Assembly (NCBI GenBank): GCA_028753945.1
Contig: JAPNXP010000003.1
Location: 3,906,001 to 3,970,000 of the forward strand
Length of the DNA: 64,000 bases
Reading direction: 5' to 3'
Source of the DNA: Hexactinellida sp. DTS-2022
Lineage: Eukaryota; Porifera; Hexactinellida
The translations under genes and the position numbers were made by a program. Shown here one piece after another: positions 3,218 through 61,229 of this stretch (position 1 is the first letter of the stretch; the number at the start of each line of letters is the position of its first letter). The notes beneath the pieces were generated by a model, which was not told the origin of the DNA, did not search any database, and saw nothing but the letters and a program-made list of their open reading frames with translations.

Positions 3218-3457
3218 TTAATTAATACACCTGGCTTAACTAATCACAACTCAAAATGAATTTTTGGCACGTGTTATTAAGTAATAGTGTGTACTTCACT
3301 AGCCACAGGTGAACTCATTAATAATATTATTTGATTTGAAATCTCAAATTAATTGATTTTATTTTATTTGAGTGAAGAAAAAATCATTTAATTACAGCTC
3401 TTGCAATGGAGTGTGTTAATTAAGTACCAATGTGAGAACTGTCTTGAGAATATTTAG

Positions 3458-4240
3458 ATTCAACTGAATTGATGAATTCACATTTCAAAGAGAAACACGC
3501 GATCAATGCAGAACCACTTTCTGTTGAGAATATCGAGATTTCTAGTAGCAACTTTGAATCTTTACAAGAAAGTGATCTAGAGCAGCAGGTTGAATATAGT
3601 CAGTTCTCTGAAGATGATATTCATGATAAGGAATACTTAGATGAGTTAGATGTAGGAACAAATATCAGTGTGGAGTGCAATTCAACTTATGTTGCCAACT
3701 CGCCAGGTGTCTCCCAGGCTATGACTTTAGACCTGATTAAAAGACGATATGCAGATATTGTAGAATTTCCAGATTTTGTCATTACCAAAGTTTCTAACTT
3801 TACAATGGAGGAAACCGGAACTGATGATATAATGGAGAAGTCTCCTCCTGCAGACGATGCCACCTCCGAGTGCTTACTAACCCACGTATCAGAGACAATG
3901 GATATTACAGGCATTGACGCTGGAGAAGACATACCAACAAATAGTAAAACACTATCGTCCCATAAAGAATCAATAAAGGTGGAAGACATTGGTCCTTATT
4001 TTTGCCCAGATTGTGATAAAGGGCTAGGTCATTCATTTCATGCTTTCCGATCTCATATGGGAAGGAATAAAGGTATTTGTGGGCAACGTAATTCTGCGAG
4101 AAAATTCTATACCTGCCCTTATTGTAACACTGATTATGCTCGTCTCCGGACTCTAGAAAGACATAACACAAAGTATGGCGTTAACTGCAGAACCTGGCAG
4201 ATTTCTATGAACAATAGGAAACAACTCCAATTGTTAGCAG
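3458..4240 (+). CDS. Paired C2HC zinc-finger exon A of an inferred multi-exon gene
   Basis: Open from 3448 to 4326. A Ser/Glu/Asp-rich stretch of about 170 residues is followed by two zinc-finger-like modules: C-x2-C-x13-H-x7-C (starts YFCPDCDKGLGHSF) and C-x2-C-x12-H-x7-C (starts FYTCPYCNTDYARL). The same pair occurs at 16.7 kb, and the second finger at 22.7 kb. A donor AG|GTATAGT follows codon position 1 at 4240, a phase-1 junction. The 5' end is less certain: either an acceptor TTTAG|AT at 3457/3458 (also phase 1 but with a weak pyrimidine tract), or a first exon starting at ATG 3472. Likely role, inferred only: DNA-binding regulator. No BTB or other partner domain is visible in the window. 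Confidence 0.68.
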
Positions 4241-4412
4241 GTATAGTGTACAATTTTTATTGTGAAAATTCCAAAAATACTCTTAACTATTTTGAAAATT
4301 TCCAAATATACTCAATTAATTTGTAAATATACTCAAGTTAATCCAAATATACCCAAGTTTTATTGGATTATTGAAACTAGTATGGTACTCCAACCACAAA
4401 TATTTATTAGTA

Positions 4413-4512
4413 CAAGCTGCTCGTCTGCTCTACGCGCGACCTTACAACATGTACTGGGGCCTGCGGCCCTCGCTTGTTTTCAAGCATGTTCCTTTTCAAT
4501 TTAAATGTCATT
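4413..4512 (+). repeat. Dispersed GC-rich palindromic repeat, copy 1
   Basis: Contains TCTACGCGCGACC and GGGGCCTGCGGCCCTCGCTTG. About 95 bp recur at 16466-16562 (inverted) and 57490-57590 (same orientation). The self-complementary GCGC and GGCC blocks suggest hairpins. Copies 1 and 2 lie just inside the two ends of the inferred first intron of the zinc-finger gene. Confidence 0.7.
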
Positions 4513-4904
4513 CTTGATGAGTGGCCCTAGCTTTCTATTTATATCCGTAGATCCTAGCTATAGGTTTATATATGGAGTATGGACAGAGTAAATAATTTGG
4601 ATATTTATACTAATTTGGACAGATAATTTTCTAGATATTAAAGCTTGTCCGTGTATAATAATATACCAACTCCTGAACTCCAAATATAATATTAAATATC
4701 ACTAAGAAACTGTACCAGTGGACCCCTAACTTTGTGATGTGGAGAAGTTATTGTATTGATTGATAATAATTTGATATCTAATAATACAATGGAATGTTAG
4801 AAATGTAGGGCTAGATAGACAGAACACAAATAACTGATTAGATGACTGAACTTCCTCTCGACCAATTAGACTACAGTCAGTATTCTAGAATTCACACTTA
4901 ACAT

Positions 4905-5168
4905 TTGACAGACACTAAAGCATTCGATTATTCTAATTGAATGCTAGCTGCTAATCCATACTGAAATAACCATCGAATTTAATTGGCGAAGGTTTTGACA
5001 CCTTTTGTGATGGAAGATGTGAACATTTTTTTAGATATTGAACTTGTTTGTACATACAGTATTCCCTACCCCCTGCCATATTTTAAGTCTGTAGCTTTTA
5101 CCAGTTCCTCAATCAATTCTGAACAAACAAACAAACACAAAAACATTGTGATTTAATATATAAGATAG
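4905..5168 (+). repeat. Dispersed foldback repeat family, copy 1
   Basis: Shares long near-identical blocks with 58345-58560, ending in an AACA-rich run and TGATTTAATATATAAGAT. Other members lie at 14.8, 15.2, 17.0, 21.6 and 59.1 kb. No coding capacity was seen. Superfamily not established; Helitron-like is one possibility. Confidence 0.65.
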
Positions 5169-6726
5169 AGTCTGATAGACCAAATATAGCCTTTCTAAAC
5201 TTGAGTAGTTTATTGAAAAGTTGAGTAAATTTGGAATTTATTGACAAAAACTTTAGCAGATTCGGAAAGATTTAGTTTTATATTTCAGTGTCAGCAAAAA
5301 GTTGAGGCTTAATTGTGCATTTTTATATTTAATTTCAAAGGTTTGTTCGTTAATGCAAATATAATCAGGTCTACTTATTATGAGCAAGCACTATGATCCA
5401 AATTTAACAACTGATTGGGTTTGTATTAAGTTGAGTTCGCATAATATGAAGTCTCTCTATTATGAACACATTTTTGGTCCCTTGCTAGCTTGATGTTCAT
5501 TATAAAAGAACTTGACTGTAGTCAGTGTAGTGTCTTTTGGATTTAGTAGTGCCACCTACAAAATGCAATGTATCGGTCACAACTGGCCACTTAAATGAGG
5601 GACACATTTTGTAGGTGTACACTTCCTCTAACTTCCATAATTAAGTCCAATCCAATTTTATGCCAATATTCGTAATCAACACTAAATTTGACGCCATTCA
5701 AATTTTTCTTTGACGACGCAGGAATGTTGTAGGAATTTAACAACATTCCATTGTCCTTAGACCCCTTATTTAACTTCACTCAGGTTCCACAAGCTAGTAT
5801 ACACATGCGGACCCTCTTAACTGTCATATGGTGACTGTAAGTTCACTTGTGTAGTATCTCCCTAGAAAACAGTGGGAGGGTGTTAAATCCCTAATAATCC
5901 CCCTTTCGGCGCATGCGCTTCCATATAGTATGTACCACACTTTATGCATGTAATGGGAAGTGTATTTACTAAAAAAAATTGTGTTCGTCGATCAGACGAA
6001 CACAATTAATACGCATCTTCGGATACGACTAACCATTCCATGCCTTTTCAATCAAATTCATTCGTTAAAATACGATTCCGGACAATTTCCACAATACCCT
6101 GGTGCTCCTCTTATTTACAGTAGTCAATAGAACATAAAATGCATATATCATCTCATAGCACAGTGGGCACAAAGTTCTGTTTCGGCCCGTTGTGAAACTT
6201 TAAGCTAACTTGAGGGCCGGAAGAATGTGAGGATATATTCTGCTACCATTGCAATAAAGTTTTGTAATTAAACTTTCCAGATGAATTTATATCCTTTGTT
6301 TCTCAGTTTATTACAAAAAGCCCTTACTACCTAACATTCAAATCATGTTTTGGAGTCGGCTATTTATACAAATAAAATATACCCAACTTTTAGCGGAAGC
6401 AAGACCATTCATTACGAACAATTCATTAGGGATACCGACATTTCGATACAGACAATTCGATACACGATAATTCGATACAAATACTGGACTCACGTAAATT
6501 TGAGAGAATAATGCTCATCTTTGAAAAATATAATATGTTTATTGTCCAATCCTGAATATTGATGTTTCACAAGTTCGTCCTTTTGTGAACTTTGCATTCT
6601 CTCAATTTGTAAAATGGTATACAATTACTTGTGCTTAAGGTGGTAATAATACACTAAGCAATGATGTTTCTTTCGCGAGTTGTCGGTCAGTATAAATAAA
6701 TGTGTATCTATGACAAACAAAGAATA
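5169..6726. other. Intronic AT-rich sequence, no gene recognised
   Basis: About 1.5 kb inside the inferred first intron of the zinc-finger gene. Apart from the hairpin at 5977-6007, only short AT-rich runs and short unconvincing frames are visible. Confidence 0.5.
5977..6007. other. Perfect 13 bp hairpin
   Basis: AATTGTGTTCGTC, a 5 nt loop, then GACGAACACAATT. Perfect stem in otherwise unremarkable sequence. It could be the remnant centre of a foldback element; no function is assigned. Confidence 0.7.
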
Positions 6727-6884
6727 CAGTTGAAACCGGATATTTTTAACACATTCTTTTAACGAAAATTTGTTAAAATATCCGATTGTTAAAAATACCC
6801 GATTTTACAACAACAACAATAATTAATTATTTACAAGAAAATGTGTTAAATATATCCGGTGTTAAAAATATCCGGTTTCAACTG
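6727..6884. mobile_element. 158 bp TA-target MITE (pogo/Tigger-like)
   Basis: Flanked by TA on both sides (6725-6726, 6885-6886). Terminal inverted repeats start CAGTTGAAACCGGATATTTT and match at both ends. The CAGT...ACTG termini and TA target are typical of the pogo/Tigger branch of Tc1/mariner. No coding capacity. Confidence 0.88.
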
Positions 6885-7129
6885 TAGTAGGAGAAACTAT
6901 TCACTGGAAATGTGAACAGAGGTTGCCGGCAAATTGCCGAGCAAGAATATTTACAAAATATTCTGAAATCCAAAATTGTTCTGAAATTGTATTTACCAAA
7001 TATTCTGAAAACGAACATTTGCATGGCTCAGATGAGCAGAAAATATGCTGCTATGAAACAAAACCGGAATAAAAAGAAAGGCAGTGGTTACAATATAATA
7101 GCTCACATAATTGTTGGAGAGAGTCTCCC

Positions 7130-8790
7130 GACAGTTTCAGAGGGCACAGCTGCAAAGTTACCAAAATTGACAGTTTAAAAAGAACAATTCAACGGCAACG
7201 TCAACGAGTGCTTGCAGCCCCCATACAACCGATTAGTCTTGGTGAACTCGAGATTCCAATGGAATACAGCAGTGTTCCGCAACCCTTCATTTGCCGGCCG
7301 CATGCGGCCGGAAAATTACTTTTTGCGGCCTGCAGAATTTCAGACAATAATTGTTTTATAGAATCACTTATGGATTTGAAGTTCCATGCATTATTGCATT
7401 TTAAATTGTTCCTAGGACCATTTTTCCACCGAAAACTTTTGGGGGATCAATTTTCCAGTGACATACATTTTTAGGTACTTGTATCAGATCTTGAGTCTCC
7501 CAAATCTTATTTTCCATCAAGTTGATTCTGCATAATTAATTATTGAGTAACTAAATAAACATAACTCAAAGGGACCAATTTTCCAAGGGGTCCAAAATTT
7601 CCGTGACAGGCCTATGGTATCGTATTTTGAGGCGCTGTATGATACACTAATATAAACCATGGATATGCTATTACAAAGTATACTGTGGTATTTTGAGGCG
7701 CTCTGGTAGATTGAGACGCTACTATAAATGTGTTGGCCTCGAGATTCCTTTTCATATTTTAATGGACTTTGAAAAGGCTGCAATAAATAGCTTTCAGCAA
7801 TACTGGCCGAACACCCAAGTGAAGGGTTGTTTCTTCATTTAACACAAAACATCTGGAGGAAGGTATACACCAGGGTTCCGCAAACTAGGTTTTTCAGGCC
7901 GCATGCGGCCTGAAAGAACCTTATGTGTGGCCTGATAGCGCAATGAAAATTTGTTTCACTTGTGGCCTGAGAGATATTTCTAATTTCATCTGGCCTGTAC
8001 ACATATACACACTGATTATACCTTTTGACTAGAGCCCGTTATGCACTTTTTGCTTAGAAATTGGTTTAGTTCTAGTATTACAACAACATAATAGTTTTGT
8101 AATAAATTCCGAAAAATTTCTCGATATTGTTTGCGGCCTGAGGAAAATTTTGTTAAGATTATGTGGCCTGATAAGAATTAAAGTTTGCGGAACCCTGGTA
8201 TACACGGAGTTGGATTACAGGTACAATACACTCAAGATGCAGACTTGGCAATGCGTATTCGATTACTACAAGCCAGGCCTTCATCTGGCCTGATTTTACG
8301 GAAAATGCTGGAAGGGTGCGAGAAATTGGAATTAATTTGGGTGCGCACTGCGCACCCAGAGTATTTTTAACATTAATTTTTGGTATTTTTTTGTTAAATG
8401 TACTATTTTTGGTAAATTTGGGTGCGCGATTGTAAAATCAACATCACCTAGGGTGCGCGGATCTCTTAGGGCCATATGAAGGACTGCTACAAGCCCTGGC
8501 TTTCGCTGCACAAAACGAAGTACCAGAGCTCCTCACGCTTGTGGCTCAACAACTACCATACCAGAAGCGAGTGATCTCATCTTGTACTTCAGGAATACTT
8601 ATGTAGGACATTTTCTATCAGGAGGCTCATTTCAAGCACCTCTCTTCCCAATTCCAATGTGGAACTATTTCTAAGAAATACCTTTCGGATTACCACGGAC
8701 AAATAATGCCGTTGAAGCCTTGCACCGATCAATTTTTGCTCAGATTTAGCTTCGGTTTTTCCATAATAACTAAAAAATTATTCATTATGG
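7130..8790 (+). pseudogene. MULE (MuDR) transposase relic, FLYWCH-type
   Basis: Fragments in several frames appear in the order expected for FLYWCH/MULE transposases. At about 7150-7222 is a basic LKRTIQRQRQRVL segment; at about 7762-7862 the core DFEKAAINSF...KGCFFHLTQNIWRKV; after the hAT insertion at 7871-8197 the frame resumes with YTELDYRYNTLKMQTWQCVF; at about 8480-8740 come LFPIPMWNYF and LPRTNNAVEALHRSI. Frameshifts, stops and a large deletion between 7257 and about 7740 (direct repeat CTCGAGATTCC at both edges) show it is dead. MULE transposases catalyse cut-and-paste transposition. A second relic of the type is at 44700-45413, minus strand. Confidence 0.85.
7871..8197. mobile_element. 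hAT MITE inserted in the MULE relic
   Basis: CAGGGTTCCGCAAACT...AGTTTGCGGAACCCTG with a perfect 8 bp target duplication GTATACAC (7863-7870, 8198-8205). It splits the MULE frame exactly, so it came later than the MULE. A related but incomplete end (CAGTGTTCCGCAACCC) is seen at about 7269. Confidence 0.95.
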
Positions 8791-8818
8791 CAAATTTTCC
8801 CTTTAATCACATACGTAT

Positions 8819-9664
8819 TAGACCTCTGCGCGGGTCATATGCGGGACCCGCGCCCGCCCCGCATCTATTGGTAATTGACCCGCCCCGCCCCGAAAATCCG
8901 AATTTATAAACAAATGAACCCGCAACAACCTGCACCAACCCTTGATATCCAATCTTCTCGCCAGGATATAATACGGTGTAAACCATAGGCGTCGTTGCAG
9001 GGGGGGGGGCAGCATAGGTCTCCCCCCCCCCAGATTTCGTCCCCTCAACTGGCGTTTATCTTGAAAATTAGTTGAAACAGTGGAGGATAACAGGTTTTTA
9101 ATTTGCCCCAAATTTCAAGTTGCATAAAGCTTTCTCAGTAAATTTACATCTCACTTACGTTATTAATTTAAAAATTATGTGTGATTTTTGTGTATTCATT
9201 GCAACATAAAATAAAAGTCTTTAAATGTTCTCTGGCTGCCCCCCTCCTCCCCAGATTTTCAGAAAAATTGGAAAGTTCGACGCCTATGGTGTAAACACTC
9301 AGCGCACAATTGCGGGCACAAACATATTTACATCCTTAAGGAATAAGAAGACGGCAATATGTTTTGGGCGGAAATTTGAAGAGCCAATTATGAGTTTATT
9401 ATTTGGAATTACGAAATAATTTACTATACAATTCGTTCGATTGCAAAACCATCTTAAGATTATATTGATCATTAATTATGTTAAGGAACTATAGAGGGGT
9501 CCGTTGTTACAATAAGTGGGCACTGCGGCCCCCCAAATAAGCCTTAGCGAGAACTTGCGCTGACCCGCACCAATCCGCAAGACGAATCCGTGACCCGCCC
9601 CGAAAATATTCTGATCCTTTGACCCGCAACCCGCATTTATTAACCCGCCCTGCGCAGTGCTCTA
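8819..9664. mobile_element. hAT-type element rich in GACCCGC motif
   Basis: Termini TAGACCTCTGCGCGGGT and RC of CCCTGCGCAGTGCTCTA. Near-perfect 8 bp target duplication ATACGTAT/ATACGTAC (8811-8818, 9665-9672). Both subterminal regions are filled with the short motif GACCCGC and its complement. It contains the nested element 8984-9288. Confidence 0.85.
8984..9288. mobile_element. hAT MITE, CATAGGCGTCG family
   Basis: Ends CATAGGCGTCG...CGACGCCTATG with a perfect 8 bp duplication GTGTAAAC (8976-8983, 9289-9296). It lies inside the element at 8819-9664. Relatives are at 12954, 33780, 42118 and 51895. Confidence 0.93.
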
Positions 9665-9672
9665 ATACGTAC

Positions 9673-10595
9673 TTGTTATGTTAATTTTGTCAAATGTTGA
9701 TTTGATTTTTTCGGTGACAGTGCGGAAACTATTTTACTGTCTATAAGTCTACAGTCAATTAAATCTTATTCCACAACTTTGATATCTCTATAATCTAGAT
9801 GGATGTTGAATATTAAATTACAAAAATTATTTATATCGAACTATTACTAAACATATAGTATACGTATATCAGTGTATTTAGTGGTTAATCCACTAACCTT
9901 TATTATATACTATATGCAAGAGAAGATATTCTAAAGAGATTTATACTTCTAGTGCCACCGATTGTTAAATTTAGGATTTTTGAGAGTGGGTCCCTAATAC
10001 ACGTAGAAGCTGACCATAAATGGGTTTGCAGTGTTTCCATATATGGTCATAAGTGTTTTTTTCCAAATTTACTGCCCTTTTCCGGGGTGGAAAAAACCGG
10101 GTTTTTTCCGGGGTGCTCTTTTCTGGCAAACACTGATTATTTATAATAATTTATGATTTGCGTCCGTGTTCACAGGAACTAAAGTTTTAGTCAGAAGAAT
10201 AATTAATGACTGCACTTCTTAATTATCAGGATAAGTGATTACTTTCTGTAAACATGATTGCAATATTCGCACATACTTTACAATGTTTACATTATAATAC
10301 AAACAATTTCAAATATACAAGTTTTTAGAATCCAATATTAATTAATTAATTAAGAGAATAGAATGAGAGATGTACACAATATTATTGTTACTATAACAAT
10401 GTTAGGTATTTTAAGCGACTCCAGGTTTTTTTAATTTCCATAATCTGCGTGACTCTAATTGACTCCTGCTTGGGAATGATCTTACTTGTGCCGATGTTCT
10501 TCTCTCCAAATATGAAATATACGTATCTGCCTTTTAAAGAGGATGAATCTCATATAAATGTAAAGCAACATATTATCTCGGATTATGATTTACCA
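9673..10595. other. No gene recognised
   Basis: AT-rich stretch with short frames that look like nothing known. A local GGGGTG/TTTTCC-rich patch lies around 10080-10120. Nothing else supportable. Confidence 0.5.
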
Positions 10596-10599
10596 ACGA

Positions 10600-11305
10600 G
10601 AGTGCATCGTATTAGTGAGTCATTACCTAATAATGAATTAAGTATTAATTATCTCATTATCTCAAAATTATCGAAGTTAGGCATATAAAATGTATTATCA
10701 ATGAATAGGAAGTTACCTAATCCGGATAGATCTGTACCAGCCTAGTTTACATAACATTCATAGTTTTTGAGTTATGGCACATTTCAGGGGTGTAGGAATG
10801 GGGGGGGGGGCCGTGGCCTCCCCAACATCCAACACTGGGGGGGGCCTGCCCCCCCCCCCTATGAATTTACTATAAATCAAAAAACATTTAGCTGCATATG
10901 CATATCGGGCATATATGATGCATTATTTTGAATTATTGAATACCTCTATTTACTGATCCAATTAAAATTAAGTGACTGATATGTTAATTGTTAAATATAC
11001 AAACAGTGTTGAATGCATAGTATACACTAACCAGCCAAAAGTATTTGAACAATTGGAGTTTTAATGCAAACAAACAAGATAATTCGCAACCAAAATTACC
11101 ATAACGTCATCAGATGATGACATATCACAATTCTGGAGGGTGCTATGTATACCTGGATACCATATTCCTATATAGTTATAATACACTTTTCAGCTCTATC
11201 ATTGCTAATTATTGGAATAAAGATCAATTCTCCATTTTTCAATGCACTTTAAGTGATCCATGGTTCAAACCAGCACTCAGGCCTTTTATATCGAAGGTCA
11301 CGATT
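10600..11305. mobile_element. Degenerate copy of the GTGACCTTCG palindromic element
   Basis: Segments at about 10630-10785 and 11100-11305 match the interior and right arm of the elements at 11645-12417 and 37747-38607, ending TCGAAGGTCACG. It is interrupted by a poly-G/poly-C-rich insertion at about 10786-10860. Confidence 0.6.
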
Positions 11306-11459
11306 GAGTCAAGTTCGGGAAATAATTAATTAAAGTTTCTTCATTATCTAAAGTACTATTATAGTAAGAGTACGCTAACTCTTCGCGAAATTGAAAATTC
11401 CAATCTTTACATGTAGAAATCTGCCAGTCTGTATGTGGGTGGCGAAAGCTTGGTAGTAC

Positions 11460-12594
11460 CACGGACTACTATAATACCGGACGCGACAAAGCCAAACCAC
11501 AGTCAAAAATGCGTAGGCTGAACATTGTATGACTGAAAATATGGTCAATTCTGATGTTTAGCCACTAAATTTGGTATCTAACACAATCTTCGGGCGCTGA
11601 ATTCAAAAATGACAATTTCAAGGTTCAAAAACATACTCCCCGCCCGTGACCTTCGTTATATAAGGCCTTACTACTACTCCGAACCATGGATTACTTAAAG
11701 GCCATTGATTATTATCCGACATATCTTTATCTCAATAGATAGTAATGACAGAACTGAGAAATACATTATAATTCTATAGGAAGTTAGGAACATGATATCA
11801 AGACATACATAACACCCTTTAGAATTGTGATATATCACCATTTGATTACGTAATCGCTATTTTTCGTGGAAATTATCGTGTTTTATAGCCTGCTTTTGAC
11901 ATAGTTAAACGCGTTATAATTGTTCAAAATTGGAACATGAGGATGTCCATAACTAGTTGAATGAAATATATCGAAATTGTAAATGGAATGTTGACACATT
12001 CCTCGGTTGCCAGGGAAATGCATATTTCTTAAAATGAGCCATAACTCAAAAACTATCTACTTTATGTAAACTATGCTAGTACTGATCTATCCGCAATTGG
12101 TAACTTCCTATTCATTGATAGTACATTTTCTAGGCCTAACTTCAATAATATTTGAAATAATGAGTGTATTAGCACTTAATTATTTATATGGTAATACACT
12201 CATTATCTCAAAGATTTTTGAATGGTGTGTATCACAATTCTAAAGGGTGTTATGTAGGCCTTGATATCATGTTCCTAACTTCCTATAGAATTATAATGCA
12301 TTTCTCAGGTCTGTCATTACTATCTATTGAGATAAAGATATGTCGGATAATAATCAATGGCCTTAAAGTAATCCATGGTTCGGAGTAGTAGTAAGGCCTT
12401 ATATAACGAAGGTCACGGGCGGGGAATGAATTTTTGAACCTTGAAATTGTCATTTTTGAATTCAGCGCCCAAAGATTGTGTTAGATACCAAATTTAGTGA
12501 CTAAACATACAGAATTGACCATCATACAATGTTCAGCCTACGCATTTTTGACTGTGGTTTGGCTTTGTCGCGTCCGGTATTATAGTAGTCCGTG
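11460..12594. mobile_element. 1.1 kb concentric palindromic element
   Basis: Outer arms begin CACGGACTACTATAATACCG and are near-perfect inverted repeats of about 185 bp. Inside sits a second palindrome (11645-12417) with ends GTGACCTTCGTTATATAAGG. The 7 bp flanks GTAGTAC (11453-11459, 12595-12601) look like a target duplication. No open frame resembles a transposase. The inner element recurs alone at 37747-38607, so the outer arms may be a separate element hit near its centre. Confidence 0.8.
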
Positions 12595-12597
12595 GTA

Positions 12598-12720
12598 GTA
12601 CTGTTGTATGACGGTTTACTTAACATGACAGTTTACTTACCTCTATTACTATAACAGAAAGTATCCATGGTTAATTATGGTTGTAGTAATAGAGGTAAGT
12701 AAACCGTCATACAACAGTAC
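12598..12720. mobile_element. Short foldback, TACTGTTGTATGAC family
   Basis: AGTACTGTTGTATGACGG... and its inverted copy meet around a short loop. The same terminal sequence bounds the 1.3 kb element at 28506-29781. It abuts the right flank of the palindrome at 11460-12594. Confidence 0.75.
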
Positions 12721-12953
12721 ATATCGTATTATCCCCGTCTCAACTATTTCCTCATCTGTAATTATAGAGGCCACTCGCATTACCTTTGATACAGTTCAGG
12801 CTTGGACTGGGTCACCGGGTCAACCGGGTCACTTAATTTTGATTTTACCCGATTCTTCACAGTAATGCTAATTAAATTTTATTGGTTTGTAGAATTATAA
12901 CTTAGAAAGATTCATCTAATATAGTAAGTCATTTAATATTTATGAGACATAGT

Positions 12954-13097
12954 CATTGGCGCCGATTTCTTTTGATTTCCTATGAAATTTGGGCGGGTCC
13001 ATCCTCAGATTCTGAGCCATAGGCGCCGATTTCTTATGATTTCCTCTAAATTTGGGCGGGTCCGGACCCGCCCAAATCGGCACTATCGGCGCCTATG
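12954..13097. mobile_element. hAT MITE, CATAGGCG family
   Basis: CATTGGCGCCGATTT...GGCGCCTATG with a perfect 8 bp duplication GACATAGT (12946-12953, 13098-13105). It carries a second internal CATAGGCGCC end at 13019, perhaps a partial duplication. Confidence 0.9.
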
Positions 13098-13518
13098 GAC
13101 ATAGTACTTCAATTGAAATTTCTTTGGTATCGCTGGTCACTGTATACTTACTTACCGGGTCAACCGGGTCATCGGGTAAAAATGTACCGGGTCATGAAAT
13201 CTTGACCCGATCCAAGCCTGATACAGTTTGCGAATGTAAACTAGATTACTTTTTACATTTTCGTGGGACAAATTTACGCTTAATTTTACACATTTTGTTT
13301 TTACTCTCAACTTTTGTCTTCTTAAATGTTTGAAATTCATATGATTTAGGTTTTAAATACCCACAATACACTTTTAAAATTACACTGCTTTAGCTCTAAA
13401 AAAACAGCTATTTTGTATTCTTACTATTAAGTTTATTAACCTTTTTGTATTGAAAAGTAAGAACACGAACACACACAAAATTTCCCTCGATTTTGAACTA
13501 AATAAATAATACCCCAAG
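13098..13518. other. No gene recognised
   Basis: AT-rich stretch. A short CCGGGTCA-containing tract (12800-12850, 13155-13205) flanks the hAT MITE and may be the arms of an older element into which it jumped. Confidence 0.45.
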
Positions 13519-13747
13519 GCGTGACCTACGTTATAATAAGGCCTATTCAGTGTTATCAAAATGTGGATAGGCCTTATTCAGGGCCGTAGCCACTGGTCAG
13601 GTTGGTCAGGTTTCAACCTGACCACTTTTGGTTGGTTGGACAGGTTAACCTGAACCCTTGGTCCTGTTGGTACTGTATCCAGCCCGGTCTAACCTGACCA
13701 CTTTTAATTGGTGGCTACGGCACTGTTATTATAACGTAGGTCACGCC
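13519..13747. mobile_element. GGCGTGACC palindromic MITE with nested insertion
   Basis: Inverted ends GGCGTGACCTACGTTATAAT, related to the GTGACCTTCG elements at 11645 and 37747. A second element, 13579-13725 (CAGGGCCGTAGCCAC...GGTGGCTACGGCACTG), sits inside. The inner one is hAT-like and rich in AACCTGACC motifs; its target duplication is unclear. Confidence 0.7.
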
Positions 13748-13749
13748 CA

Positions 13750-14274
13750 AGACTACTAAATCACAAAATGGAGACATTCTAAAATTTTAAAAAATTATAA
13801 AGCAACCACATGCTAAAATACAATTAATATCCGAGTTTATGGCCTATTCAATATACGGCTAATTATCCCACCGAGAAGGCCAGTTTCTAATTTTCATTCT
13901 AAGCTAAACTATGCCTCCTATTTGCATAATTTGCATTGTATATGGGGTAATCAACCATCGCGAGTCCAATGGAATCACTTTTGAGAATCTGAGATATGTG
14001 GTTAAGCAGTTTAGGCGCAATTTCATGGTGACGGTAACAATCTATAGTAAAATTTAAAATATTTCAAATATCATAAATTTCATTTTCTTGCTACTAAATA
14101 GGGATATACTATTTCATACCCCAAAGGCTACTAAATCACAAAATGGCGACAAATTAGCCGACAATATATATATATATTTTAATTATAAAGCAACCACATG
14201 CTAAAATACAAGTATTATCCGAGTTACAACTTACTATTTTCGTCCATAAAACGATATAATTGCTGGTTTATATA
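13750..14274. other. Intronic repeat-like sequence, no gene
   Basis: Segments near 13775-13830 and 14130-14220 resemble each other. A block near 13910-14010 is found again, inverted, near 15880-15985. No coding sequence was recognised. Confidence 0.5.
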
Positions 14275-15075
14275 TACGAGCCCTTCGGTCTCGGTCGCTT
14301 AGCGACGGATCACTCTCTCACAAAGGCCGCTTCGTGACCTTTGTTCGTTCGTGGTAGACACTATGTAATACAAATAACGGCCGCTTTGCGGCCTTACCCA
14401 CCGTGAGGTAAAACAGAATAGAAAAAAGATTTATCTAGTTCAAATAGGAATTTATATAAACACTTATTCATATCTAAATATCTAAACTTATGCACTTCTG
14501 TATGCTATTAATAAATCACTAATAGAACTAACTAAACTGTATACATGCAGGTGGAGCCAGCAGGTAATTACCAAACCTCAATATGTGCAGTGAATTTAAT
14601 ATGTGAATATGTGCAATGAATTTAAAGCAATAATAATAATAATCATAATAATTAATTCCCACGTGACGTCATAAACCCATAAATCGGAATACGTGTGTCT
14701 CATTTCATGTTGTCTTGCCATCTAAAATTGTGGGCGTATCGGTTTTAGAAATGAAAGAGTTATTCCCAAATAAGTGCCTTTTTGACGTCATAATCCCGTT
14801 ATTTTGTTTCAAAAACCAATAGATCGTTGCCGCAGTACAAAATTACCCTAGGATATAAATTTTCAGCTTTCTGGGACTCGTAGTCTTCCCAATCAATTAT
14901 GTACAAACAGACAAACAGACAAACAAACATACAATAATTCCGCTTTTAATATACGAGCCCTTCGGTCTCGGTCGCTTCGCGACGGATCACTCTCTCACAA
15001 AAGTCGCTTCGCGACTTTTGTTCGTTCGTGTTAGGCACTACGGGATACAATTAACGGCCGCTTCGCGTCCTTTCC
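14275..15075 (+). repeat. Duplicated GC-rich CGAGCCCTTCGGTCTCGG repeat
   Basis: Blocks at about 14275-14400 and 14950-15072 are near-identical: CGAGCCCTTCGGTCTCGG, then stem-forming TCGCTTCGCGA and TTCGTTCGTG. Inverted remnants occur at about 21885-21957 and 59300-59375. The region between holds a member of the foldback repeat family (about 14800-14940). No ORF. Confidence 0.75.
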
Positions 15076-15179
15076 CTCCCCAAAAGCAATCACATTAATA
15101 ATGAGTTTTAATAGCTCAATAAATTTCAGTTGCACGATAAGAAAGCTCGAATCAAAATAATACTAAAAGAAAAACAGGC

Positions 15180-15735
15180 AATAGAATAGACAAATGATTG
15201 ATTGGTTAAATGAATTTATTTTCAATCAATCAAATTGGAGCCTCAGAAAATATTTCTATTATGCACAATCTATTTATACTAATTGATGAAATCTGCTAAT
15301 CCATACTAACAAACCCTCGAATTTAATTGGCTAAAACTGGATTATTACACTTGCACTTTGCTATACCTGTGTTGGTACGATACGCTATTTATGGTTGATT
15401 AGTGTACGGACTAATTAATTAACTGTGTTACAATCAGAAGAAAAATGGGAATTCGTGAACTGCTATCAGGTGTAGAAATTTAGTGTATGTCTAATGCTTT
15501 GAATTTTCTACAGATCGGAGCAAAATTGGGAAGCTAGTACAAAATATCTGTTTTTCGCAACTGTGGCGTCATAGACCCGTTATTTTGTTTCAAAAACCAA
15601 TAGATCGTTGTCGCAGTACAAAATTACCCCTGTATACAAATTTTCAGCTTTCTGGGACTCGTAGTCTTTCCAAATAATTCTGGACAAACACACAAACACA
15701 CAAACACACAACAATTGCTCTTTTAATATAAAGAT
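15180..15735 (+). repeat. Dispersed foldback repeat family, long copy
   Basis: Contains AATGATTGATTGGTTAAATG, GAGCCTCAGAAAATATTTC and CTTTCTGGGACTCGTAGTC blocks seen again (some inverted) at 14.8, 17.0, 21.6 and 58.6-58.9 kb. It ends in an ACAAACACACAAAC run. Non-coding; superfamily unassigned. Confidence 0.65.
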
Positions 15736-16071
15736 AGATAGATTCATTCTCATTCTATATTCTGAAAATGTATACTAAGTATATTAGCATTTAGCAAATT
15801 ATCTTCATTTCTCGTAGTTCTTTAGACTCGAATTGTATATTTTGTATATTTGTGATGTCATCGTTAAATGGCGCCTAAACAGCTTAACCACAAATCTCAG
15901 ATTCTCAAAAGTGGTTCCATTGGACTCACGAGTCACGATGGTTTATTACCCCATATACAATGCAAATAATAACAATAGGAGGCATAGTTTAGCTTAGAAT
16001 AAAATTACAAAACTGGACTGGACTTCTACTATGATTCGGCAGCATGTATAGCCGTATTAGTAGGCCATCAG

Positions 16072-16392
16072 CAGGGTTGATAAAAATCATGATTTTTTTG
16101 ATTTAAATCAGAGTTTTGATTTTAATTGTTTTTTTTGCAATCTATATCACACTGACGTATATTATTTGGCTAATAGATTAATTACATTGATAATGACTCA
16201 TTATCATTCTAATTTGACTCATTATCAATGTATTTCTTTTCTTTTCGCAAAAAACAATAGACATAAAAATCTGATTAAAATCAAAGAAGTCTGATTAAAA
16301 TCAAAAAAATCCGATTTTTTTGATTTTAATCAGACTTTTTTGATTTTAATCAGATTTTTGATTCTAATCATGATTTAAATCAAACAATCCTG
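16072..16392. mobile_element. hAT-like MITE built from TGATTTAAATCA motifs
   Basis: Ends CAGGGTTGATAAAAATCATG and ATTTAAATCAAACAATCCTG. Possible imperfect duplication (AGGCCATC/AGGCCATG) with two extra bases at the left. Both subterminal regions consist of repeats of TGATTTAAATCA and its variants. Second copy at 37345-37651. Confidence 0.75.
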
Positions 16393-16465
16393 AGGCCATG
16401 GTGTGATAATTATATATGTGATTCATGGTATAAATTGATTGATAGATAACGGGCATTAAATTTGA

Positions 16466-16562
16466 AAAGGCATGTGTTTGGAATACAAGCGAGGGCCACA
16501 GGCCCGAGTGTAAGTTGTAAGAACGCGCGTAGCGCGGACGAACAGCTTGTTTATATAAAGTA
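16466..16562 (-). repeat. Dispersed GC-rich palindromic repeat, copy 2 (inverted)
   Basis: Inverted copy of 4413-4512, with AAGCGAGGGCCACAGGCCC and CGCGCGTAGCGCGG. It lies about 100 bp upstream of zinc-finger exon B. Confidence 0.75.
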
Positions 16563-16668
16563 GCGATTTACAATAATTTCAGTTTTAACCTGTTAAAACA
16601 ATTCCTCCAACACTTGCTGGTCCTTGAGGGTACTCACACACATAGTATGAGCCTTATTATTTTCCCAG

Positions 16669-17022
16669 GTGCAGACATACCACAGCGTGTCCAAAGCTTG
16701 GAAATAACAGATTCTGAGCCTACCAGAGATTATACAGAACTTCATTCACCTCATTTGATAACTGAGGAAGACAGTAATCCTTATTACTGTCCTGACTGTG
16801 GTCGATGTTTAGGCTATTCGTATAAATCTCTCCAGAATCATATTGGTAGGTATACAGGGTACTGCAGGGAGAAATTTGCTGGAAGAAGATTCTACGGGTG
16901 TAAATACTGTAAGGAAGAATTTCATGAACTCATTAATCTCAAAATACATAACAAAAAATTTGGCGATGCATGCAAGACCAATCAGATCACATTGAATAAA
17001 AATAATATCATCTTCAACTATA
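16669..17022 (+). CDS. Paired C2HC zinc-finger exon B of the inferred gene
   Basis: A strong acceptor TATTATTTTCCCAG precedes 16669, leaving two bases to complete a codon (phase 1). About 40 residues lead to the finger pair: C-x2-C-x13-H-x7-C (starts YYCPDCGRCLGYSY) and C-x2-C-x12-H-x7-C (starts FYGCKYCKEEFHEL). Both have the spacing of exon A. A donor A|GTGAGTT at 17022/17023 leaves one base, again phase 1, so the exon is symmetrical and could be skipped or alternated without changing frame. The frame continues into the intron to 17126, which would be read only if the donor is not used. Likely DNA-binding; targets unknown. Confidence 0.72.
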
Positions 17023-17034
17023 GTGAGTTATACA

Positions 17035-17205
17035 TCTGTATATTAAAAGTACAATTGTTTGTGCGTGTGTGTTTGTCCAGGATAGGAAAGACCCCAAGCT
17101 CTAGAGATCTGAAAATTTGCATATAGGGGTAATTTTACACGCTGACAACGATCTATTGGTTTCTAAACGAAATAACTATATGACGTCATAAAGGCACAAT
17201 GTGAA
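17035..17205 (-). repeat. Foldback repeat family, short inverted copy
   Basis: GTGTGTTTGTCC...GATCTATTGGTTTCT...TATGACGTCATA, the inverse of blocks at 14800-14940 and 15560-15720. It follows directly after exon B. Confidence 0.65.
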
Positions 17206-17391
17206 CACCTATTCACATATTGTAGTTACATAACGTCACGAAATAACACATTAAGTAATAACTCCAACAGTTTTAACTCAATCGCTCCAAAAAATGTATA
17301 ACTTTATAGAACTAAGTGTGTTAGCCAATTTTCTATTGTACATATCACTTTAATTTTCCTCTGGGCCCGTATTCACTAAGATTACTTAGTA

Positions 17392-17579
17392 CAAGGGTGC
17401 TCAAACGGTGGCCCGCGAGACCATTCGCTGTGTCCCGCGGATAATTCGCTTCTTGAGGTCAAATAGTATAGCTTGAAAATTGATTAAACTAAAGCCAGAG
17501 GCGATCTATGATTTGTGGCCCGTAAGGCGGAGCCTAATATTTAAAGTGGCCCGTAGATTTAAAAGTTTGAGCACTTCTG
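17392..17579. mobile_element. hAT MITE nested in the Harbinger terminus
   Basis: CAAGGGTGCTCAAACGGTGG...AAGTTTGAGCACTTCTG with a perfect 8 bp duplication ACTTAGTA (17384-17391, 17580-17587). It inserted after the tandem terminal repeat existed. Confidence 0.93.
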
Positions 17580-18873
17580 ACTTAGTACCTAAGTTACTAA
17601 GTATATACATAAGTACTAAGTACGTACTTAGTTAAGTACATACTTAAGTCGTATTCACTAAAAAATATTGTTGTACTTAAGTACATACTTAACTAAGTAT
17701 GTACTAAAATACGAAATTGAATTATATTTATTCAATTATATTTAATAGCATACATATTAGTGTATGGACTATGGAATGCTATTTGTAATAGCTTGCTGTA
17801 TTCTTTTAACTTAAAAAAATATTCTCAATGAAGTTCCTGTGATTTGTGTGCTTGAAAAAACAGGGCCCGTATTCACTAAGATTACTTAGTACTTAAGTAC
17901 TAAGTATATACTTAACATACTTAAGTCGTATTCACTAAGAAATATTGTTGTACTTAAGTACATACTTAACTAAGTACGTACTTAAGTACGAAATTATATT
18001 TATACGTGTATTTTATATTTATTCAATTATATTTATAGTACACTGTTCATTCTTTTGGAATTGGCTTTACGTAATATTCAACGTAGTATTGATAATTCAA
18101 TATTTAAATTACATTTTATCTTAGTGAAGTATCTACATTATTATTTTGAATAGTAGAATTGACATCATCAATCAACTGTCCAAGTGTTTTTATTTCAATT
18201 GTATGAAACACAAATTCACTTTGAAGCTATAACCAATCAATAACAGTCATTATAGAGCAGTATAGTTATGTAATACTGTATATTCTATAGTATTCAGTCT
18301 ACCATAAGAGTACAATACAATATGGAGAAGATGGCTGATTTCCGTAAAAGAAAACCGTTAATAAAACGGAGAATTGATTAGCGACCTATTCATTTTAATT
18401 GATATATAGAAAGAACATCCTTAGGAGAATACAACCACTATATTTTTTTATTTTCTATATTTTTTTCCGGCCGGACGGAACTCTATCAGAACGAATTCAA
18501 TTCACTTATAGTATAAAACTATAGAGGACCCTACTATAACGGTTTTACTAGAAGAAGCACACTAAAATAGGTTTCAGCATGTTGGTGAATATTTTTCACT
18601 ACACAATTGCTAGTTGCAAACGAATGCATGCATTATTATTTATTCAAATAGAGAATTTAATTACACAAATGCTAGTTGCAAAGGAATGCATGGTATTTTC
18701 TTTATTCAAATAGAGAACTTAATTATTATTTTGAATTTTGTATCTTGCATTTTAACGTTAAATTAACATTCCAAGTAACCATAAATCCATCAATTGTTTG
18801 ATAACTGATTACGCAATTAAGTATAAATCTGTGATTTAAATCTGATTCATTCAATTACACAAAATTCTTACAA

Positions 18874-19917
18874 ATGGCACAAATGATTCCACTATTTCTA
18901 GCAGAAGAAGAAGAAAACTCTTCATCTATGGCACGTCCAAGAATTTTTAGGGATATTACTGATCCCTTAGATTGTTATGATGATTTGGAACTTGTTCAAC
19001 GTTTCCGCTTCTCTAGATCATCAATTTCAAGAATCACTGAGTTAATAGCTCATCGTTTAAACTTTACAGATCGCTCCCATGCCGCTCCCCCACATTTACA
19101 GGTTTGTGTTGCACTTCAGTTTTTTGCTTCTGGAACGTTCCAGATAATCTGTGGAGATGGAGTTAATGTAAGCCAGTCTTCAGCTTCTCGCTATATTCAT
19201 GATGTTTCACAAGGTTTTCAGGATATATACAACCAGTATGTTAGTATGCCAAGCTCAGCTGAGAAGGCAGAAGTCAAGAACAAATTTTACGAAATTGCTC
19301 ATTTTCCAGGCGTCCTTGGACTAGTTGACGGGACACATATACGCATTCAAAAACCATCTGAAAATGAAGCAGATTACGTGAACCGACATTTTTACCACTC
19401 AATTAATGTCCAAGTTATATGTCGATCGGATGGTATAATTAGTGATGTGTTGGCTCGTTTTCCTGGATCTGTTCACGATTCTCGCATTTGGAAGCTTTCT
19501 CGGGCTGGAATATATGTTGAAAACAACTTATTAATCGGGGAGCACATATTAGGGGATAGTGGTTACATGCTAAAGCCCTACTTACTGACACCCTATCGAC
19601 AACCAGCCTCGACTCCCCAATCCAATTATAACTATGCTCATAAGAAAACACGTGTTATAATTGAGCAAACATTTGGAAGATGGAAACGTAGATTTCATTG
19701 TCTTCATGGCGAACTTCGGATGTCTCCAGATAAAGTATGCATGATAATAGTTGCTTGTGCAGTATTGCATAATATGGCAATTATGTGGAAACAACCTCTA
19801 TTAGATGACGAATTCTCCAATGTAACTGATCCGAGTGAGCTGTTTGAGGTTGAGGATACTGGCCATATGGCTGCCAAACATTATCGAGATCAATTCTCCA
19901 TTCATAATTTCAGCTAA
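18874..19917 (+). CDS. PIF/Harbinger (HARBI1-like) transposase, intact 347 aa
   Basis: DDE-type nuclease that excises and integrates the Harbinger element. N-terminal helix-turn-helix-like region (about residues 40-110, ending in the SQSSASRYI motif). Catalytic core: GLVDGTHI (D152), PGSVHDSRIW (D202, conserved), LGDSGYML (D228) and VIIEQTFGRWKRRF (E264). The likely triad is D152/D228/E264. Length fits the family (about 340-400). The start ATG at 18874 is followed at residue 19 by a second ATG. No stop or frameshift; it looks functional. In this superfamily the transposase needs its Myb-like partner, which lies 360 bp downstream but is frameshifted here. Confidence 0.95.
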   Translation: MAQMIPLFLAEEEENSSSMARPRIFRDITDPLDCYDDLELVQRFRFSRSSISRITELIAHRLNFTDRSHAAPPHLQVCVALQFFASGTFQIICGDGVNVSQSSASRYIHDVSQGFQDIYNQYVSMPSSAEKAEVKNKFYEIAHFPGVLGLVDGTHIRIQKPSENEADYVNRHFYHSINVQVICRSDGIISDVLARFPGSVHDSRIWKLSRAGIYVENNLLIGEHILGDSGYMLKPYLLTPYRQPASTPQSNYNYAHKKTRVIIEQTFGRWKRRFHCLHGELRMSPDKVCMIIVACAVLHNMAIMWKQPLLDDEFSNVTDPSELFEVEDTGHMAAKHYRDQFSIHNFS

Positions 19918-20276
19918 TATTTCAATAGCAGTATTGTATATTGTTAATACAGTATTATCCGCTTAATAGAGCCACTGTTAATAGATTTCACCGTTTAATT
20001 GAGTCAAATTAACCCTGTCCCGAGGTGACTCCAGAGTCTAAACGCATTTAAATTAAGTTAGGGATGTAATGCAACATGGGATGTATTAGCATAGCATATT
20101 AGTGTATGGAATGCTATTGTATTAGCTTGCTTTATTCTTTTAACTGTAAAAAGAATATTCTCTTTGAAGTTCCTGCGATTTTCGTGCTTGAGAAATATCG
20201 TCGAGTACAATTGCATCGGCTGTTGTTATTGCAAAAGTATAAATTAAAGTGATTATTTGAATTTCAGCTAAAGAAA

Positions 20277-20985
20277 ATGGAAAAACCTCGAAAAAGTAAC
20301 TGGTCCAAAGAGGAAGAGTATACACTCATCGACGCGATTCAATCCGCTCGTGATTTACTCAGAGGTACTGGGCACTGTGCTGACCTCAATAGGAAGAAGA
20401 AATCACTGTGGACCGATATGGTAGGAAAGGTTAACTCGATCCATGGAAACAATAGAGATGTTAAAGACCTTAAGAAAAAATGGAATAATCTCAAGGGAGC
20501 TGCAAAGTCTCATGTCGATAGTAGTCGTCGAGAATCAAGACAGACAGGAGGAGGACCAAATGCAGTTGGAGAGATAAGTGACGAGGCTATACTTATCCTT
20601 TCTGCTGACAAAGACTTGTCAACCACTGCAACGGAGAGGGTAACAGATATGCTAGAGGGTACACCTGCATTTAGTGGAATTATGGGAAGTATAGACTTGT
20701 TCGAAGGACCATCAAATTCCCTACCTGAAGAACTTGTCATTGAATCAAGTTCCATGATCCTCGACGCACCAGAAGTTCTTGTAAACAATAGTTCTGCTGT
20801 TGGAATACGTACCCGCAAACGTAAAATCTTCAGCGAGGTCATTATCAGCCTCTGATCTACTCCCTCTACAGCAAGAAGTTCTCTGCAAACAAATGGAGGT
20901 TTTTTCAGCACAATTAGCCTTAATAGAGGAGCAGAGGGAATACTATCGACTGAAAAAACAGAAACTTTTAGAAAAAAAGAATTAA
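20277..20985 (+). pseudogene. Harbinger Myb/SANT-like DNA-binding protein, frameshifted
   Basis: ATG 20277 opens a 192-codon frame with a Myb/SANT-like trihelix (SNWSKEEEYTLIDAIQ ... LWTDMVGKV ... LKKKWNNLKGAAKSHV) and the QTGGGP motif typical of Harbinger second ORFs. It stops at 20855. The expected C-terminal tail (LLPLQQEVLCKQMEVF ... IEEQREYYRLKKQKLLEKK) follows in another frame to 20985, so a frameshift near 20830 separates the parts. A tiny intron is unlikely. In the family this protein binds the element's ends and brings the transposase into the nucleus. The copy may be non-functional or lack its tail. Confidence 0.85.
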
Positions 20986-21266
20986 AGTAATAATTGTTGA
21001 AAATAGAATAATAAACTTCCCCTAAAGTAAAGCAAGTACTACAAGATATATAATACAATGTTCTAATTAAACACCAACGTCTCAGGGTCAATAAAAGAAA
21101 ATTCTTATAAGTTAAGTTAACTTAGTAGGTTACTTAAGTTTTGTACTTAAGTATGTACTTAAGTACGCACTTAAATCTTAGTGAATACGACTTAAGTACG
21201 TACTTAGTACTTAAGTACTAAGTACTTACTTAAGTACGTACTTAACTTCTTAGTGAATACGGGCCC

Positions 21267-21524
21267 TGGTAAGAAGTAGACTTAACTTTTTGTTTACTTT
21301 TCAACAGAAAACTAAGCAAGAACTAAGTTTTATCTCAAAACTAAGCACAAACTAAGTTCAAACTAAGTTTAGACTTTAGTTTGAACTTAGTTTTGCTTCG
21401 TGAATACCGACTTAGTTTCAGACTTAGTTTGTGCTTAAACTTAGTTTAAACAAAGCACAAACTAATTTTATGCTTAGTTTAAGCACAAACTAAGTTCAAG
21501 AAGTTTAGTGAATAAGGCCCCAGC
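21267..21524. repeat. Second Harbinger-like terminal repeat
   Basis: Dense AACTAAGTTT/AAACTTAGTTT repeats ending GTTTAGTGAATAAGGCCCC, which resembles but does not equal the right TIR at 21266. Probably one end of a related MITE abutting the full element. Confidence 0.65.
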
Positions 21525-21579
21525 TGATATTAATAAAAATGTAAAAATGTGTGTTTGAAAATATTCGCATTTTCATCCA

Positions 21580-21965
21580 AATTATTTAGCCAAAAAAATT
21601 CGAGGGTTTGTTGGATTAGCTATACTCCATTCAATTACTGTGCATAATAGAAAGATTTTCTGAGGCTGCAATTTGATTGAGTGAAATAAATTCATCTAGC
21701 AATCATTTGTCTATTTTATTGATTTTTTTTGCACCTGAAATTTAGTGAGCTACTAATGTGAGACATTGAATTTCCCAAACAAATTAATTGTGTAACATTC
21801 TTATTAAGGAGACTTTATTAGAAATATATTTAATACGCCACAAAGATGTTAATTCTAAATGATTAGTTTCAAGGCGTAGTAAGGCTCGCAGCGGTTGTCA
21901 ATTGAGGCGCAAATCGCCGAACAGTCTCAAAGCGACCGAGACCGAAGGACTCGTTTATCTAATAA
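21580..21965 (-). repeat. Foldback repeat family plus CGAGCCCTTCGG remnant
   Basis: Blocks shared with 58720-58870 and 59140-59380 in the same orientation, and inverted relative to 15180-15350. Ends near GACCGAGACCGAAGGACTCG at 21957. Confidence 0.65.
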
Positions 21966-22710
21966 ACGTACTTTATTATTCACAAGGATTACATTTTTAT
22001 GTAATGTCTCACATTGTGACTGAGATAGAGGAATATTTCAATAAATTAATAATACATAAAACTATATAAAAATTTGAAGTTTATAACCTGTATAAGAGAT
22101 TAAGAATACACCAACCGACCAAAATTGCAAAAGTATATGAACAACAGGAATTTTAATCCAGACACAATATGCTTCTTGTAGCTTATTAACGGCTGTTTAA
22201 TCTACTCTGAAACACTTTAAATATGTTGCTATAGATATATCAATTTATTTTGAGTCATTTTTATCCAATATCCATGAAGTGGTACATGTCACCTGGCACT
22301 TGTGGCAGTTTTAACCTCCATGCTCCATAAACATGCGAATTGAAAAATTAAGTAGTTTTATTTTAGTTAACATAACGTTTATGTAAATATCCATGTATAA
22401 GCTTCTACAATTGTTATTATGCCGCTAGAAGCTTGAATGTATTAATACAAACTATTGTTGTTCAAATACTTTTGGCCGTATGGTGTATATATCCACTGTA
22501 ATTCCCTTATTTTCCCCATTATTGGAATCATTGTTTAATACTGTTCAGACATGTTATAACCTCAATACAGGTGTTAATTAGGAAAGAAGTAATATTGTTT
22601 GAATATAACTTCTCTAGTAGTGATACTTTTATGCGGAATGGCTAGTTAATAATAAGGACCATGCCAATTTATAAACTCACTCTACTTATTTTGATGTATC
22701 TATCCTACAG
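21966..22710. other. Intron sequence before zinc-finger exon C
   Basis: No open frame recognised. Segments at about 22110-22160 and 22420-22480 (CCAAAAGTATTTGAACA-like) resemble others near 11030, 23250-23320 and 24000, another low-copy dispersed repeat. Confidence 0.45.
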
Positions 22711-22916
22711 ATGGAGAAGTGAAAGAGATAGAACTGTATAGTGGTCTATGTAAAGAAATGTCTACAAAAAAAGCATATTACACTTGTCAGTATTGTAAGT
22801 TTAGTTACTGCTCAGTTTACGCTCTTAGATATCATAACAAAAAGTTAGGTGAAAGTTGTAACCTTTTGAAGAAGCCGTTAAATCCGAAAAAGACACCCAC
22901 ATTGAATAAACATTAG
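22711..22916 (+). CDS. C2HC zinc-finger exon C, likely terminal
   Basis: Acceptor TATCTATCCTACAG ends at 22710; the exon starts with two bases completing a codon (phase 1, same as exons A and B). It encodes about 68 residues with one finger of the second type, C-x2-C-x12-H-x7-C (YYTCQYCKFSYCSV...HNKKLGESC), then a basic tail (LKKPLNPKKTPTLNKH) and TAG at 22914. The first finger of the pair is missing; only a short stretch precedes the finger. Joined to exon A or exon B the frame stays open with no stop at the junction. Either the last exon of one transcript or an alternative 3' end. Confidence 0.68.
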
Positions 22917-56620: not shown

Positions 56621-56640
56621 CTGAAGGAAATCGGAACTTA

Positions 56641-57100
56641 AATAAAACTATACTGTACATATAATATTAATTAATTAAACCTCGATTTGTTGTTAGTTTG
56701 TTTGTCCGGAATTAACTAAAGTGATAAGGGAATAGAAAACACATTAAAATTTGAGGTAGATACTAATTTCCAAATGTTATAATAGGTAAACAAGTATGCT
56801 AAATACGAATTTCGCATCTACAAATTATAATTTGAATATATACGTAAGTATATTGCTGCTGTTTACAAATTAGGGAACAAATTAGGGAACAAATTAAGAA
56901 AATGATAAATGAAACTAGAGGTTAGCTTCCAACGGGATAATACGTTAATTAATTAATGGATATTCTCATTTGAAATTGAGCATCCATACATGTATAATAT
57001 AGCTATTTATTGTTGTTGTTCACAATTGAAATAAGCGAGACCGTGTAGTAATGGAGTGATCCGGCCGAAGTGACCAGTTGATGACTCAAATATTTATATG
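56641..57100. other. Intron of the coiled-coil gene, no feature
   Basis: AT-rich sequence upstream (minus sense) of the acceptor at 56621. No exon recognised. Confidence 0.4.
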
Positions 57101-61220: not shown

Positions 61221-61229
61221 CTGCTACTG

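Follow-up and report, generated by a model that had tools for sequence, protein, structure and literature searches.

Clustered C2HC zinc-finger genes of a hexactinellid sponge probably form a lineage-specific family that diversifies at predicted DNA-contact positions

A three-exon zinc-finger gene

We analysed a stretch of 64,000 nucleotides from the genome of Hexactinellida sp. DTS-2022 (assembly GCA_028753945.1, contig JAPNXP010000003.1, positions 3,906,001 to 3,970,000 of the forward strand). This stretch, hereafter the window, has a GC content of 36.6% and contains three exons, A, B and C, that are predicted to encode zinc fingers of the C2HC type (Table 1). As judged from its sequence, the window holds a single gene, A-B-C, which is one member of a larger family.

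The exons are bounded by phase-1 splice sites. Exon A ends at the donor gcag/gtatag (the slash marks the exon boundary), exon B lies between an acceptor at 16668/16669 and the donor ata/gtgagt at 17022/17023, and exon C begins at the acceptor cctacag/a at 22710/22711. An initial reading of the sequence by a model (the original prediction) had assigned phase 1 to three acceptors and two donors; both donors and the acceptors of exons B and C were confirmed, but the acceptor proposed for exon A at position 3457 was not, as described below. The prediction had also placed the same two finger types in all three exons. Both spacings are present in exons A and B, where finger 1 is C-x2-C-x13-H-x7-C and finger 2 is C-x2-C-x12-H-x7-C, but exon C carries a single finger of the second spacing, where the counterpart exon of a neighbouring paralogue, L002, has two. 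We interpret exon C as a reduced copy that has lost one finger relative to L002.

Table 1. Positions of the zinc-finger gene and of other features in the window.
Feature	Position	Strand	Description
Damaged exon A start	3406..3447	+	ATG at 3406, in-frame stop at 3421-3423; homologous to the L002 start
Exon A	3448..4240	+	Open frame, in-frame ATG at 3472; two C2HC fingers at the end; phase-1 donor 4240/4241
Exon A finger 1	4003..4080	+	C-x2-C-x13-H-x7-C
Exon A finger 2	4114..4188	+	C-x2-C-x12-H-x7-C
Exon B	16669..17022	+	Phase-1 acceptor and donor; two C2HC fingers, 16788-16865 and 16899-16973
Exon C	22711..22916	+	Phase-1 acceptor; single C2HC finger 22785-22859; stop 22914-22916
Harbinger-like proteins in B-C intron	18835..20855	+	Insertion, outside the gene proper; DDE_Tnp_4 18835-19917, Myb/SANT 20253-20855 (Pfam)
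Coiled-coil-like open frame	54872-56647	-	591 codons
Nicotinate phosphoribosyltransferase match	59553-61223	-	Intronless open frame, 556 residues
Tandem repeat	62774-63175	+	154-base period, 2.6 copies

A gene family clustered on one contig

The genome (112.4 Mb, 18 contigs) was searched with the exon B protein, which returned 73 matches at E<=0.001, a lower bound in which a few exons are split into two rows. All but two lie on the window's own contig (C12), and the remaining two lie on contig C6. The 71 matches on C12 comprise the three window exons, three of L002, six at 4.06-4.07 Mb and 59 at 4.97-5.28 Mb. Further exons of the same type, for which a search had been suggested, are thus found in the sponge's own genome and above chance. 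The finger-free N-terminal part of exon A matched 24 rows, or 22 places after two split ones were joined: 18 strong matches within 0.3 Mb at C12:4.98-5.28 Mb, in an array about 1 Mb from the window, one at 4.07 Mb, the window itself, L002 and one weak partial match. With the last exon of L002 as query we obtained 70 matches, at places on C12 and C6 only.

L002 (C12:3886026-3887893), some 22 kb upstream of the window's exon A, has three exons in 1868 bases, which is the predicted layout of a complete three-exon gene. The family is one of about twenty neighbouring genes that multiplied locally on one contig. On C6, a middle and a last exon lie adjacent to each other at locus L049 (G000:C6:1033850-1035250). 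The N-terminal exon A query matched no first exon on this contig, and the pair is apparently a translocated piece.

Array sequence was obtained for 200 kb (C12:4960001-5160000, L019-L038), locus L007 and additional short stretches. From these we extracted 45 finger pairs with a pattern of intact ligands: 23 from last exons (array label B), 14 from middle exons (T2) and eight from first exons (A). The eight first exons inspected in the 200 kb are only partly the same as the eight of the 45-pair set. An array unit consists of an ATG exon, a middle exon and a stop exon joined by phase-1 introns, with two C-x2-C-x12/13-H-x7-C fingers per exon. Several candidate acceptors were available for each exon and the one at a conserved distance was used; phase-1 sites then stood at conserved places in all first-exon donors (8/8), middle-exon acceptors and donors (14/14) and last-exon acceptors (23/23). 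The array first exon encodes approximately 184 residues ahead of the first finger cysteine, and in 23/23 last exons the stop follows 24-57 bases past the finger pair. One of the units led by a first exon in the 200 kb has a last exon but no middle exon. Within a gene, the finger pairs of the different exons are homologous and the introns between them are phase 1, which agrees with the earlier suggestion of a gene grown by exon duplication.

The paralogues also allowed us to reconsider the 5' end of the window gene. In L002 and all eight first exons of the 200 kb, homology runs past the point aligned with 3457 to an ATG, and an AG is missing from the aligned site in all nine sequences. Seven of the eight array exons have this ATG in the family frame; in all eight an in-frame stop lies 18 bases before it, and approximately 85 upstream bases are common to the copies. 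Because the paralogues read across 3457 back to an ATG, exon A is most likely the first coding exon, and the acceptor predicted there was rejected. Near its start, window exon A has +4 and -1 base differences relative to L002, as a result of which the frame opened by the ATG at 3406 closes after five codons; the next in-frame ATG is at 3472. With its start damaged and a finger lost, the window copy is probably decaying.

The N terminus of exon A resembles a degenerate extra finger (window 3411-3500; L002 624-720). The window retains C-x2-C and H-x4-H pieces in two frames, and in L002 and the array copies the ligands are lost. Pfam recognised no domain in the N-terminal region of exon A.

A C2H2-like finger with a different last ligand

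In classical C2H2 fingers the last ligand is a histidine and the spacing of the final pair is H-x3-5-H. In the present family, the ligands C, C, H and C with H-x7-C are kept in 17/17 aligned rows of first, middle and last exons, which upholds the prediction that the spacing differs from the classic one. Finger 1 of L002 exon A, outside this set, has H-x6-C. The spacing given for poly-zinc-finger proteins in the available part of one study is C-X2-C-X12-H-X3-H (PMC2604467). When the family profile was compared with PDB sequences, C2H2 proteins ranked first and in register, including the designed protein Aart (2i13, E 1e-10) and PRDM9 (5v3g, E 1.5e-7). In finger 2 of the last exons, F and L are invariant (23/23) and helix positions -1, 2, 3 and 6 are the most variable; helix position -1 of finger 1 is an invariant Ser. 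On this comparison the predicted helix layout is of the C2H2 kind, and it is the last ligand that differs (Cys for His).

None of 14 singly reported exon proteins (three from the window, one array last exon and 10 further) reached a Pfam cut-off, C2H2 models included. Among further exon rows the best match was to zf-C2H2_4 at 1e-5, a figure that is an E-value only, the comparison with cut-offs resting on the 14 single proteins. Because the examined exons fall below these cut-offs, the family could escape surveys that count C2H2 genes with these models. Exon A of the window, of L002 and of one array copy had no Pfam match to KRAB, SCAN or ZAD; FiNZ was not searched separately. No C2HC finger family of the present kind was recognised in the portions of the literature that our search returned.

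Diversification at predicted DNA-contact positions

Helix numbering followed that of C2H2 fingers, counting backwards from the histidine, which in finger 1 is preceded by one extra residue. The main DNA contacts are positions -1, 3 and 6, with 1 and 2 contributing in some fingers, as stated in the part of the source available (PMC2604467). In the 23 last exons, mean entropy was 1.72 bits at the eight contact positions versus 0.55 at other non-ligand positions (p 5e-5 on permuting the position labels), and the five most variable of 62 columns were all contacts (+6 of finger 1; +3, -1, +6 and +2 of finger 2). Pooled pN/pS in these exons was 2.77 at contacts versus 0.71 elsewhere, and in the 13 middle exons without a stop it was 3.25 versus 0.45 (p 0.005).

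Changes were also counted on trees built from exon and flanking sequence, contact codons included. In last exons the contact omega was 2.88 (63.5 nonsynonymous and 5.5 synonymous changes; binomial p 0.003) versus 0.73 elsewhere, and in middle exons it was 4.04 (21 and 1 changes) versus 0.51 elsewhere. The contrast between contacts and the remaining codons gave Fisher p values of 0.004 for last, 0.008 for middle and 0.64 for first exons. Distinct combinations of the eight contact residues numbered 22 among 23 last, 13 among 14 middle and seven among eight first exons. These data point clearly to contact-site diversification in last exons, and probably in middle exons as well.

Exchange of exons between units

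The histories of neighbouring exons within a unit can disagree, which suggests an exchange of exon-sized pieces. Along the middle exon and most of the intron, the units at 5.016 and 4.966 Mb diverge by 0-2%, versus 5-21% along the last exon and 3' flank. Between the units at 5.071 and 4.966 Mb it is the last exon that differs most (7-11%); the middle exon and upstream sequence differ by 0-6%, the intron by 0-8% and the 3' flank by 0-2%. When four-gamete compatibility was tested across seven units, from the middle exon to the last, the result was p 0.0005, and similarity blocks between units are centred on exons and varied in extent.

Protein distances of middle and last exons from the same units, contacts included, were uncorrelated (Mantel r 0.05, p 0.35, n=12), and with contact codons removed and flanks added the correlation was only moderate (r 0.35, p 0.011, n=12). 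Whole-unit duplication as the sole process was rejected on these grounds. The units seem to have been partly duplicated whole and partly assembled as mosaics. A more elaborate scheme, which we put forward only tentatively, is a modular repertoire in which phase-1 finger-pair exons would serve as cassettes swapped among approximately twenty neighbouring genes by recombination or gene conversion, with contact residues driven to diversify in a C2HC finger invisible to standard domain models.

Proposed role and alternative explanations

We favour the reading that these genes form a lineage-specific, diversifying family of DNA-binding zinc-finger proteins encoded by clustered separate genes, with a probability of about 0.68. 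In the mechanism that we propose, each finger would adopt a zinc-binding beta-beta-alpha fold, with cysteine in place of the last C2H2 histidine, each protein would bind its own DNA sequence and the N-terminal region would recruit a partner. In the array, amino-acid change at the contact residues, above all those of the last exon, outpaces silent change, and nearly every sampled copy has a combination of its own. The repertoire would track changing genomic targets, most likely transposable elements, as has been proposed for KRAB and FiNZ genes. By this analogy the role may be recognition of changing genomic targets, chiefly transposable elements, although we consider that somewhat less than an even bet. 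The unusually fast change at predicted DNA-reading positions may point to an arms race, perhaps with mobile DNA.

Several results weigh against this reading. The first exons (n=8) gave a pN/pS of 1.24 at contacts versus 1.09 elsewhere with a weak entropy excess (p 0.049), and tree counts found no contact rate excess in them (omega 1.26 versus 1.01). Two array first exons compared over 260 codons had a dN/dS of 0.91, so constraint on the first exon in the array may be weak. The probability given above was lowered slightly because the first exons are near-neutral. In middle exons, the contact omega alone was not significantly greater than 1 (p 0.11). Of the eight first exons in the 200 kb, five are open through the fingers and three carry a frameshift within or ahead of them, one of 14 middle exons contains a stop, and a donor-like site precedes the stop in two of 23 last exons. 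Conservation of ligands in the 45-pair set is true by construction, as the extraction pattern demanded it. Within exons the compatibility test was not significant (last exon p 0.42, last exon with flanks 0.17, middle exon 0.08).

Some of these points would also be expected if a tandem family were decaying under relaxed constraint, with contact variability produced by mutation and gene conversion and not by positive selection. Broken array copies, the damaged window copy and the near-neutral array first exons fit this explanation, but relaxation alone would not lift amino-acid over silent change at contact columns only. The 23 last exons, albeit from a set chosen for intact ligands, retain frame, acceptor and stop, and window exon B has a dN/dS of 0.25 relative to its L002 counterpart (0.50 for exon A). 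We therefore regard relaxed decay as unlikely.

The original prediction had also raised a set of alternative finger exons as in Drosophila lola, which would imply one giant gene in which a shared 5' region is linked by cis- or trans-splicing to many finger exons. The exons are indeed compatible in phase, and four of the eight units led by a first exon have an extra exon of the last-exon type before the middle exon, two intact with a stop and two broken. These extra exons are a possible opening for alternative splicing with an alternative 3' end. In lola too the fingers lie on separate exons, and its isoforms include some with C2HC fingers, according to the part of the study at hand (PMC1947980). 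However, in lola a single common region coding for BTB is joined to many 3' exons, whereas each of the eight units here starts with an ATG exon of its own, followed by one that bears a stop. Of the 30 BTB matches in the genome, not one is on C12. ATG-bearing first exons recur (21 strong matches, of which eight were inspected), which speaks against one common 5' region, last exons carry stops and L002 is compact and complete in layout. We rejected lola-type alternative exons on the absence of BTB from C12 and the repetition of start and stop exons, and consider a giant gene improbable. That the finger segments belong to a multicopy mobile element, an alternative named with the original prediction, is highly improbable, since despite the many copies and the isolated middle-plus-last pair on C6, all but two of the 73 matches cluster on a single contig and these two lie next to each other, with nothing found beyond them, introns and splice sites are kept and the similarity blocks are exon-centred and uneven; the clustering decided this, mobility genes and terminal repeats of the units not having been searched systematically.

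A diversifying family of separate genes has parallels in other animals. KRAB genes of tetrapods and FiNZ genes of cyprinid fish are reported, in the parts of the sources available, to show positive selection on base-contacting helix residues (PMC2604467, PMC10547256). The present genes are like them in being clustered, lineage-specific paralogues with an amino-acid excess at DNA-contact residues (clearly in last exons, relative to other sites in middle exons, not in first exons), but their fingers are C2HC with H-x7-C, two per exon over three exons, whereas KRAB and FiNZ proteins carry C2H2 fingers in one long array. Exon A also lacks the KRAB match that would be expected of the former group. 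Among invertebrates, the ZAD and the ZF271-like/APEZ genes of insects are likewise zinc-finger expansions with clusters and pseudogenes, as far as the excerpts describe them (PMC6444547, PMC7655104); unlike ZAD genes, the present family has no ZAD match in exon A and differs in finger spacing and exon layout. Fly and mosquito zinc-finger expansions were tested in one study, which in its available part reports no positive selection (PMC2604467).

Most descriptions of fast-evolving zinc-finger clusters concern long C2H2 arrays. The present family shows this signature with another finger type and with exchangeable exons, and diversifying DNA-binding families may be more common than current counts suggest. 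With its natural variants, the array could serve to test what drives change at contact residues and whether H-x7-C fingers read DNA.

Other features of the window

The B-C intron contains open frames for a DDE_Tnp_4 transposase (E 1.1e-41) and a Myb/SANT protein (E 7.3e-16), a pair that we take to be the make-up of a Harbinger element. The intron had been predicted to hold a complete element; both proteins are present, but completeness was not borne out, with no clear pair of ends seen among the 25 of 41 inverted repeats listed. An Rfam scan of the window found nothing at gathering scores. In the genome, an 18S gene matched SSU_rRNA_eukarya, as expected of a eukaryote; a search for COX1 gave no match, and exact 30-base runs of TTAGG or TTAGGG were absent.

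Three further features lie towards the 3' end of the window. The 591-codon open frame on the reverse strand appears coiled-coil-like by eye and had no Pfam match above the cut-off. The intronless frame beyond it matches nicotinate phosphoribosyltransferase (NAPRTase_N, E 2.1e-27). The tandem repeat has 91% matches, with a finer repeat of approximately 31 bases beneath its longer period.

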